NCBI GenBank assembly: GCA_029546925.1 | Contig: JAKPQM010000008.1 | Coordinates: 1 to 64,000, forward strand | DNA length: 64,000 nt | Source: Actinomycetes bacterium | GTDB lineage: Bacteria > Actinomycetota > Coriobacteriia > Coriobacteriales > Atopobiaceae | Reading direction: 5' to 3' | Part shown: positions 33,816 through 38,281 of the stretch, piece after piece | How the letters are laid out: each line of letters starts with the position of its first letter | Position numbering within the stretch: position 1 is the first letter of the stretch | Program-made: the position numbers and the translations under genes | Notes under the pieces: generated by a model | Told to the model about the DNA's origin: nothing | The model's database searches: none | What the model saw: only the letters and a program-made list of their open reading frames with translations

Positions 33816-34503
33816 CTACGCCGCCTCCATCGTGTCCGCAAGCTCGAGACTCGCCTCTATCGCCTTCTTGGCGACGAGGCGCAGCTCCTCCCGACGCCGC
33901 TCGTCGGGCGCCTTCGGGGCCGGCCTTTCCTCGTAGAACTCCGAGATCTTGGCCTCCGAGAAATATCTGCACCCGGACCGGACCTCGTCCTGCTCGCACA
34001 TGACGGCCCCGGCCAGGCGCTCCAGCGATGCCGCCGAGGGGAACACCTGCACCACCTTCGACCTGCGCTTTATCTCCCTGTTGGTGCGCTCCTGCACGTT
34101 GTTGGTGCGCAGGCGCTTCCAGTGCGAGGCCGGGAAGTCGAGGTAGGCCAGGGCGTCGGCCTCGGCCTCCTCCCAGACCTCCGTCGCCTTGGGGCAGCAC
34201 CCCTCCAGCATCTCCGCCGCGAGGTGGTACATTGCCCTGACCTGGTCGGCGTCCTTGGCCCGGAAGACCGGCGCCACGATCCTCGCGACGCGGCGCCCGA
34301 GCCGGCGAGACGAGGCCTCCCTCACGCAGTCGCGCATCAGGTGCACGGCGCAGCGCTGCCAGGCCGCACCCTGGAAGACCTCGGCTATGGCCCTCCTCAG
34401 CCCCTCGTGCGCGTCCGAGGTGACGAGCTCGACGCCGCCGACGCCGCGGGCCCTGACGGTCCTGAGGAACGCCAGCTAGGAGTCGTAGGACTCCGTGTCT
34501 GAT
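33816..34503 (-). pseudogene. IS256-family transposase, truncated with nonsense codon
   Basis: The - strand reads D-T-E-S-Y-D-S, stop (34476-34478), LAFLRTVRARGVGGVELVTSD…, VHLMRDCVREA, RTNNVQERTNREIKRRSKVVQVFPS, the C-terminal half of Mutator/IS256 DDE transposases. The VTSDAHEGL Asp and a later Glu region are present. The first half is missing, and an amber replaces a codon that is normally Trp. A possible terminal repeat lies at about 33747-33774 (GTGTCGGAAATGTTGGTGTAAC). The element is inactive. Confidence 0.85.
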
Positions 34504-34770
34504 ACCGCTACTCTAAAAACCGCCGATTGCACCAACATATCTCGCCAATCGCACCAATACAAAAGCGCCATTCGAACCAACGTTGTTTAGCCGATCGCAT
34601 CAACGTAACTAAGCTTGCTTCCAGCTGGCATCAGTCGGAAGGAGCGCGATTGGAAGCAAGCATATTGCCGGTAGTCCGATTGGCGAAAGAGCGGTGGCGC
34701 CGCTGTCGAAACTGCAGTAGCGCGTTTGACGCGATGCGGTAGCTCAACTGTCGAAATTTACGGTAGCGCT
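34504..34770. repeat. Two 22-bp-period repeat arrays around an inverted repeat (transposon-end relic)
   Basis: Four copies of a GCCGATTGCACCAAC-like 15-mer start at 34522, 34544, 34567 and 34590 (period 22-23). Three copies of a TGTCGAAACTGCGGTAG-like motif end at 34720, 34742 and 34766. Between them is a perfect 11-bp inverted repeat, GCTTGCTTCCA (34613-34623) / TGGAAGCAAGC (34651-34661). Multiple ~20-bp repeats at element ends are typical of IS21-family elements, so these may be the two ends of elements whose bodies were deleted. Confidence 0.5.
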
Positions 34771-34917
34771 ATCACCAGCGGCCAGGACGTGAAGACCGTG
34801 AGCGCCATCCTCGGGCACGCCAACGCCGCCATGACGCTCAACATCTACAGCGACGCCCTCGCGGACTCCAAGCGGACGAGCATGGACATGCTGGACAGCG
34901 TCTTCTCGGCGGTGTGA
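34771..34917 (+). pseudogene. Tyrosine recombinase (integrase) C-terminal remnant
   Basis: Reads SGQDVKTVSAILGHANAAMTLNIYSDALADSKRTSM…, the last ~48 residues of a phage-type integrase. It includes LGHA (catalytic His/Arg box) and IY (the nucleophile Tyr box in relatives is …T…IY.H/D). The rest of the gene is missing; upstream is transposon-end sequence. It suggests that an integrated element once ended or began here. Confidence 0.75.
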
Positions 34918-34934
34918 GGTAGTTGCAGGCCGGG

Positions 34935-36497: not shown

Positions 36498-37208
36498 ATG
36501 CCTGCACCGAGGAAGCGCGGAAACGCGCAGCGCAGAAGCTTCACGACCATCTTCAGCAACGAGCAGCGGTACCTGTCTCTCACCGGCCTGAGCCGCGACA
36601 TCGCGGATGCCGAGCTCGGGACCCAGTCCAACGTGTTCGAGAGATGCGTCACCAGCAGCCTCTTGCCCTCGAGGGCGGCGGAGAGGTACGCGGCGATGCT
36701 CTACGCGCGGGACGAGCCGCTGGGCGTGCTGGAGTGCATCGAGGCGCTCGCACGTGATCTCTCGATTGCGGCCGGCGAGCCCGCATCCGAGGAGGGGCTC
36801 GTCGGATTCGTCCGCTATGCCTACGACTACGCCGCCGAGCACCACGTCGAGATCGGCCCCTGCGCGGCGAGGAAGGCGCTGGCCGCCGATCTGGAGGCCC
36901 TCGTGGACCATTAGCGGGAGGAGAGGGGCGGCCCCGAGGCCGCAGATCAGCTCCTGGCACTGATCTCGGAGCTCTCGGACGGCGGAGAGGTGGCGCTGAG
37001 GGACGTGCCGTATGCAATCCTCTCGATCTGGGGCTCCCTGGGCGACAAGCGCCCCGCGTTCCGTGCGCTCGCGGATGCCGCGCAGGCGGCCCTCGCCGGC
37101 GATGGGATGCACATCGCAGACGACCCGTCCGACAGATGGGGGTTCATCTCCGCGGTCGGGAGGATCGATGCCGACGAAGGCAGGTCGGCACTCTCGCTCG
37201 GAGCATAA
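36498..37208 (+). pseudogene. Unknown protein interrupted by an amber codon
   Basis: GGAGG lies 5 nt before the ATG. The frame gives 138 residues (MPAPRKRGNAQRRSFTTIFS…) to TAG at 36912-36914, then continues open in the same frame to 37208 (…EVALRDVPYAILSIWGSLGDKRPAFRAL…). The joined product would be about 236 residues, acidic and helical. I do not recognise the family. A single nonsense mutation is the simplest explanation; read-through or two short genes are alternatives. Neighbour to the hairpin array and the MobC-like gene, so probably part of a mobile element. Confidence 0.5.
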
Positions 37209-37247: not shown

Positions 37248-37403
37248 ACTTGCTGCGTTCAGCAAGTCCCGTGGTTCGTGTACACAGTTGTACGGAAACC
37301 CGTACACGAACCACCGCTTGCTGGGTCCAGCAAGTCTCGTGCGAGATGTCCATGGTCGTACGTACACCATGCCGTCGCGCATCACTTGCTGAGTACAGCA
37401 AGT
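37248..37403. repeat. 68-bp-period array of hairpins (three units)
   Basis: Three copies of ACTTGCTG-N4-CAGCAAGT at 37248-37267, 37316-37335 and 37384-37403, exactly 68 bp apart. Loops differ (CGTT, GGTC, AGTA) while stems are kept (the second copy starts G rather than A). Each 48-bp interval is itself an imperfect palindrome, e.g. GTGGTTCGTGTAC / GTACACGAACCAC in the first. A third interval and a broken fourth repeat (ACTTGG, 37455) follow. It lies 180 bp upstream of a MobC-like gene. It could be an origin of transfer, a replication control region or a structured RNA. Confidence 0.75.
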
Positions 37404-37583
37404 GATGCGCGACATGTACATGGTTGTCCGTACGGCCCGCGGCCATGTCGCACCACTTGGCTCGACCCTCCCCACCTTTCCGCGGTGGGGAGGGCTTCGA
37501 TTGGAAGGGCAGAAGGACGTGCGGGGGAGACCCCGCTCCCCTATCTAGGACATCCACGGGCATAGCGCGGACGGGAGATGGCC

Positions 37584-38090
37584 ATGGCATTGGACAGGGA
37601 AACGCGCACCGTGCGCGTCGAGCTCAGGCTCACTCAGGCGGAAAGCAGGCTCCTCGACGAGATGGCGGAGCGGTTCGGGAAGACGAGAAGCGGCTTCCTG
37701 AGGCTCGCCCTTCATGCGATAGCGCTGTACCCGACAGACGAGGCGGCTGGCGAGGATCCCATCCTCTTCCTTGATGCCACGACCTGGCAAGGTATCCTTT
37801 CGGAGCTCCGGCGCAATCGCATCGGCCTCGGCTGGTGCAACCGTCTGTGTGAGGAAATCGAGTGGAATGTCAAGCGCCACACCAAAGACATGCTGCGCGA
37901 CGCCGAGATAGCAGACATGGTTGTGAACCAGATGGAGGATGCAAAGAACGCCATCCGGGAAATGGTTGGGATTATGAACTCGATTGACAAGCGCATCTGC
38001 GAAGCGCTATCACTGCGCCAGCTCATCAGGTCGAAGGTGGATTACGACAGGGGATGGGCGGAGAACAGGCAGAAGGCACGCAGAGCATAA
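37584..38090 (+). CDS. Ribbon-helix-helix protein, MobC-like mobilization accessory
   Basis: A protein of 168 residues. Start chosen at the second ATG, 6 nt after GGGAG. Residues 6-45 (ETRTVRVELRLTQAESRLLDEMAERFGKTRSGFLRLAL) have the beta-strand plus two-helix pattern of RHH DNA-binding proteins. The rest is helical with EMVGIMNSIDKRICEAL. Length and layout fit plasmid/ICE MobC-type relaxosome proteins that bind near oriT. No relaxase gene follows; an MFS gene on the other strand is next. Assignment as MobC is moderate; a general RHH regulator is possible. Confidence 0.55.
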   Translation: MALDRETRTVRVELRLTQAESRLLDEMAERFGKTRSGFLRLALHAIALYPTDEAAGEDPILFLDATTWQGILSELRRNRIGLGWCNRLCEEIEWNVKRHTKDMLRDAEIADMVVNQMEDAKNAIREMVGIMNSIDKRICEALSLRQLIRSKVDYDRGWAENRQKARRA

Positions 38091-38281
38091 AACCGCAGGT
38101 AGATGGCTTATTGTAAGCCGTTCTAAGATCCTATCTTTCTGAAAACGACCTAGATACCGTGGGTAATCTGGTTGCTTTCATAATTCAAGGTTCGCCATCG
38201 GGAAAGACGATTGGGAGATTGCACTCGCGGCTTTCTCCGGGGGCCTCGCCAATCCGTCGCTTGAGCCACCTCGAGACCAGC

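Follow-up and report, generated by a model that had tools for sequence, protein, structure and literature searches.

A 68-bp tandem array upstream of a mobC-like gene in a Coriobacteriales genome is probably the composite origin of transfer of a relaxase-less element

The stretch of DNA analysed here, which we call the window, is 64,000 nucleotides long and carries on its plus strand a mobC-like gene which is preceded, at a distance of about 180 bp, by an array of three units at exact 68/68-bp spacing. The first-pass annotation called this gene MobC-like; its product is RHH/NikA-like, though this weak likeness stays below Pfam cut-offs. R64 also has a NikA-type RHH protein. The features of the locus are given below; the assignment of units to types A and B is explained later.

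34767-34918, plus strand: integrase remnant, C-terminal end, with 88% DNA identity to the same-genus element G079:C17
36498-37208, plus strand: upstream ORF of the same element family, with an in-frame TAG at 36912-36914
37248-37255, minus strand: inverted extra core ACTTGCTG, ahead of unit 1
37260-37315, plus strand: candidate oriT unit 1, type A; core CAGCAAGT at 37260-37267, hairpin arms 37271-37283 and 37302-37314, fold z -3.9; matches G081:C61 unit 2 (L35b) and L033
37316-37323, minus strand: inverted extra core GCTTGCTG, between units 1 and 2; taken on the minus strand, it stands ahead of the unit 1 hairpin as well (arm match 11/12)
37328-37383, plus strand: candidate oriT unit 2, type B; core CAGCAAGT at 37328-37335, interval 37336-37383, arm pairing 8/12, lone hairpin weak (z -0.3); matches L35a and unit 3
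37374-37413, no strand: 40-bp palindrome bridging units 2 and 3, from the last part of the former into the first part of the latter; 18-bp perfect arms 37374-37391 and 37396-37413, 4-nt loop, z -8.6
37384-37391, minus strand: inverted extra core ACTTGCTG, between units 2 and 3
37396-37454, plus strand: candidate oriT unit 3, type B; core CAGCAAGT at 37396-37403, arm pairing 9/12, z -1.5; related to unit 2, best inverted
37455-37464, minus strand: degenerate core ACTTGGCTCG, earlier described as a broken fourth stem, read from the sequence
37466-37494, plus strand: terminator-like hairpin CCCTCCCCACC/GGTGGGGAGGG, between the array and mobC, likewise read from the sequence
37521-37543, plus strand: GC-rich element GCGGGGGAGACCCCGCTCCCCTA, single copy, conserved 5' of mobC in almost every relative
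37578-38090, plus strand: mobC-like gene, 170 aa, RHH/NikA-like N-terminus
38088-38154, plus strand: conserved right-end sequence of the element family, 3' of the relaxase gene in G079:C17 and directly 3' of mobC in the window

The stems of the three units lie at 37248-37267 (ACTTGCTG-CGTT-CAGCAAGT), 37316-37335 (GCTTGCTG-GGTC-CAGCAAGT) and 37384-37403 (ACTTGCTG-AGTA-CAGCAAGT). The spacing reported in the first-pass annotation was reproduced exactly, but the 8-bp stem that it took to be perfect in all three units has one base changed in unit 2. Allowing up to two mismatches, the stem pattern matched only these three sites in the 2.4-Mb draft genome, across which the reversed pattern, used as a control, gave 0 matches. 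Units scattered through the genome and unconnected to mob genes had been named beforehand as the outcome that would speak against an origin, and we found the unit at this locus alone. REP/BIME repeats, expected in many scattered intergenic copies, were rejected because the array occurs at one locus in this genome. We also concur that this is not a CRISPR array, which needs identical repeats and unrelated spacers, as the intervals here are related to one another and to oriT hairpins.

When folded as DNA, the 221-nt array region was far more stable than its shuffles (z = -11.6). The 48-bp intervals, all three of which had been described as palindromic, behaved differently from one another: interval 1 has perfect 13-bp arms and folds well (z = -3.9), interval 2 by itself is matched by its shuffles (z = -0.3) and interval 3 shows only weak folding (z = -1.5). 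The palindrome with the third stem at its centre is the strongest structure (the surrounding 68 nt give z = -8.6). The likeness of intervals 2 and 3 noted earlier is real, but they align best in inverted (z about 8.0) rather than in direct orientation (5.7), and it is because of this inverted match that the strongest structure is the 40-bp palindrome. Each unit can be read as the core CAGCAAGT (ACTTGCTG on the other strand), a few bases and then a hairpin. Relatives of the locus keep just the CAGCAAGT half of the stem, which makes the 8-bp stem a core motif with an inverted extra copy, and the argument that conserved stems with changing loops betray selection on structure does not hold outside the window.

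PF03432 (MobA/VirD2-type) relaxases are encoded in 139 of 397 Coriobacteriales genomes. Of MobC relatives, which 14 of 140 family genomes contain, several stand directly before a PF03432 relaxase gene, and a single core with a hairpin lies upstream of most close MobC relatives. Among 28 loci with readable upstream DNA, 23 carry a single AGCAAG-N4-hairpin ahead of an RHH mobC and a PF03432 relaxase gene; by our own count of the order-wide loci with upstream sequence, a single core with hairpin precedes mobC in 18/23, none of these 23 relaxase loci has a tandem array, and five same-genus loci add five further single-copy sites. Averaged across 28 sites, among them the array units, arm complementarity has a sharp maximum at offset +10 from AGCAAG, and at least 10 of 12 arm bases are complementary in 19/23 single-copy sites as against 0.6% of random window positions; arms were scored at one fixed offset, since MAFFT misplaced the distal arms of the oriTs. 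These counts are not independent, because the order-wide, same-genus and 28-site sets overlap and the sites are related. The arms differ between groups (GTGG..., GCGCGA..., CTATT...) and still pair, the behaviour expected of a hairpin under selection. The first-pass annotation had raised three possibilities, namely oriT, a replication control site and a structured RNA; comparison supports oriT well, with single-copy sites of this layout standing before MobC-relaxase pairs in many Coriobacteriales. The array shares both hallmarks of this site family, namely a core at a fixed distance from an inverted repeat (strongly in unit 1, weakly in units 2 and 3) and a place beside relaxosome genes that is conserved in relatives, the window array preceding mobC. 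Our literature searches turned up no description of this oriT family.

A REP-like repeat, structured RNA or terminator with no role in transfer is a reading to which we give very little credence, as it is already largely refuted. Its one encouragement comes from G120, of another genus of the family, where a REP-like palindrome with CTTGCTG is dispersed through the genome; against this, the unit is found solely at this locus in its own genome, which lacks the G120-type repeat, its position ahead of mobC is a conserved one, and the array matches no Rfam family, which also goes against the structured-RNA idea raised earlier. In G120 itself the TGCGTACGCA palindrome is followed by CTTGCTG at constant spacing, dispersed in L060 (G120:C3), G120:C1 and C2, with nine exact matches in G120 and none in seven other genomes searched of its genus, and these repeats resemble a REP-like family with an oriT-like layout.

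Known oriTs consist of an inverted repeat just 5' of a short core which is nicked by the relaxase (PMC3772185). In MOBP oriTs such as those of RP4 and H. pylori tfs4 this arrangement likewise lies beside a VirD2-type relaxase gene, but their classical core is (C/T)ATCCTG(C/T) (PMC3772185) whereas here it is CTTGCT(G), and relatives too have CTTGCT in place of ATCCTG. It is unlikely, in our judgement, that the array consists instead of binding sites of the RHH protein MobC (operator or accessory sites), amplified for regulation or binding strength, with the nick site elsewhere, for example in the GC-rich element. RHH accessory proteins do bind dyad-symmetric sites within oriTs (PMC8136818), and the GC-rich element, which lies nearer to mobC and might hold part of oriT, is highly conserved; its conservation extends even to a low-GC relative, and it remains single-copy. 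However, a hairpin with a short invariant core within ~10 nt is the usual form of oriT and nick site (PMC3772185), and the core-hairpin layout is the constant feature across relatives. The GC-rich element (GCGGGGGAG.CCCCGC..CCCCT) was also seen upstream of mobC in L030-L035, L037, L038, L041, L042, L094 and L098.

A DNA search of the genus gave one related locus, G081:C61, in a same-genus MAG, where two copies of CGGGACTTGCTGCAC, 69 bp apart, lie upstream of a mobC-like gene. Two CAGCAAGT cores 48-76 bp apart were matched in 32 of 397 Coriobacteriales genomes, among which the hairpin layout at a MobC locus is confined to the window and G081:C61; judging by the matched sequences, most other matches resemble coding sequence, simple repeats or other repeats. 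A single stem match in G056 is probably due to chance, since it falls inside a reading frame, and two pattern matches in viral contigs are both within coding sequence. Neither the plasmid collection nor the viral contigs contained DNA similar to the array locus or a MobC relative, and the scan of genome contigs returned nothing beyond the G081 locus. Two arrays are therefore known, from one genus and both in decaying loci with in-frame stops, and our literature search, which covered few subscription journals, found no paper on a tandem oriT array. Pairwise interval scores sort the units into type A (window unit 1, G081:C61 unit 2 (L35b) and G079:C17 (L033)) and type B (window units 2 and 3 and G081:C61 unit 1 (L35a)), in the order A-B-B in the window and B-A in G081:C61. 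Type A is thereby present in G079:C17, a complete same-genus element with its own relaxase, while type B has only weak matches to relaxase-linked sites (L030, L034).

G079:C17 contains, in order, an integrase, a toxin-antitoxin-like pair, the upstream ORF, oriT, mobC, the relaxase gene and the conserved end sequence. Window DNA is 88% identical to it at the integrase end, 77% in the upstream ORF and 84% in the end sequence; this synteny marks the window element as what is left of an integrative mobilizable element. It departs from a canonical element of this kind in having no relaxase gene of its own, the end sequence lying directly 3' of mobC, and no intact integrase, of which the C-terminal end alone is left (34767-34918). 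With respect to integration, then, this copy is probably a remnant in decay. A Mutator-family transposase, represented by its C-terminal part at 33816-34346, adjoins the integrase remnant and may be what cut the element. The right-end sequence of ~67 bp (GGTAGAYGGCTTRTTGTAAGCCGTTYTAAG...CGACCTAGA) occurs at window 38088-38154, in G079:C17, C3 and C39 and in G081:C61, and may be an attachment site. In L032 (G079:C39, 11750 bp) either end of the contig carries a piece of a relaxase, and the two pieces cover overlapping parts of the query, which suggests a mobilizable circle of 11.7 kb or else an artefact of assembly.

The relaxase gene is missing at both array loci. The mobC-AAAACCGCAGGTAGA junction that results is common to the window and G081:C61 and absent from other copies of the end sequence, suggesting a common relaxase-less ancestor despite MobC-like proteins that are only 37-39% identical; differences between the two array-bearing mobC genes at the three codon positions are close together (0.42/0.38/0.49). 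The truncated integrase, the broken upstream ORF and an internal stop in mobC of G081, the other array locus, are what one would expect if the array were a functionless decay product, with oriT pieces duplicated by slippage or recombination in a dying element. We hold this to be rather improbable, as two loci with MobC only 39% identical both have 68/69-bp arrays, both unit types and the relaxase-less junction, which indicates an older working arrangement.

Taken together, these comparisons, namely a layout common with single-copy sites, two unit types, a missing relaxase gene and synteny with a complete element, make it likely that the array is the composite oriT of a relaxase-less integrative mobilizable element which has kept mobC and depends on relaxases acting in trans; a core that is not the classical MOBP nick sequence ATCCTG, and hairpins in units 2 and 3 that are weak alone, weigh against it. 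What we infer is nicking and its position, transfer in trans and a wider helper range. The bottom strand reads hairpin, four bases and CTTGCT(G), in the order of parts seen in known oriTs, and the relaxase would accordingly bind the hairpin and nick this strand at or just after the core, in which case mobC would enter the recipient last. This exact position is tentative, given that the conserved core differs from ATCCTG, the classical MOBP hexamer. The ribbon-helix-helix protein MobC would aid binding to the site. Since the element has no relaxase, both relaxase and secretion channel would have to be supplied by another element, and with units of both kinds, A and B, it would be open to helper relaxases of more than one type. 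The genome encodes a T4SS coupling protein and holds one relaxase locus, of a different oriT type; no relaxase matching type A or type B was found in this draft genome.

The closest precedent is provided by staphylococcal plasmids with two to three oriT variants. In the pWBG749 family, oriT mimics with SmpO are mobilised by a relaxase in trans, several plasmids carry 2-3 oriT variants of different hairpin (IR2) types, the RHH protein sets specificity and one class of oriT is followed immediately by a truncated smpO (PMC4652767, PMC8136818). Those are Firmicutes plasmids with another oriT sequence, whereas here we see a strict 68-bp fused array with a different core on an integrated element of Coriobacteriales, for which mobilisation by a helper is presumed. 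Relaxase-less MGIs (MGIVflInd1, MGIVchHai6, MGIVmi1) are similarly integrated and carry an oriT or a relaxosome accessory gene with no relaxase, as does the present locus, in which unit 1 resembles the oriT of L033; they are known from Gammaproteobacteria and Firmicutes and, in the accessible part of the source, are described with an oriT and not with tandem arrays (PMC5704250). According to one survey, most plasmids with an oriT are predicted to have more than one (PMC7755788).

The element may have hitch-hiked on several different helper elements. More tentatively, and with a good deal of doubt, one may picture a Coriobacteriales lineage of relaxase-less elements that keeps modular tandem oriT units differing in specificity, so that a single element could be taken up by several unrelated helper relaxases, possibly from either strand, since the hairpins have cores to either side. 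Actinobacterial mobilizable elements have received little study (PMC5704250), and the oriT family described here is tied to relaxases present in roughly one in three of the Coriobacteriales genomes searched. The array offers a compact natural case in which to ask whether hitch-hiking elements widen their range of helpers by stacking oriTs.
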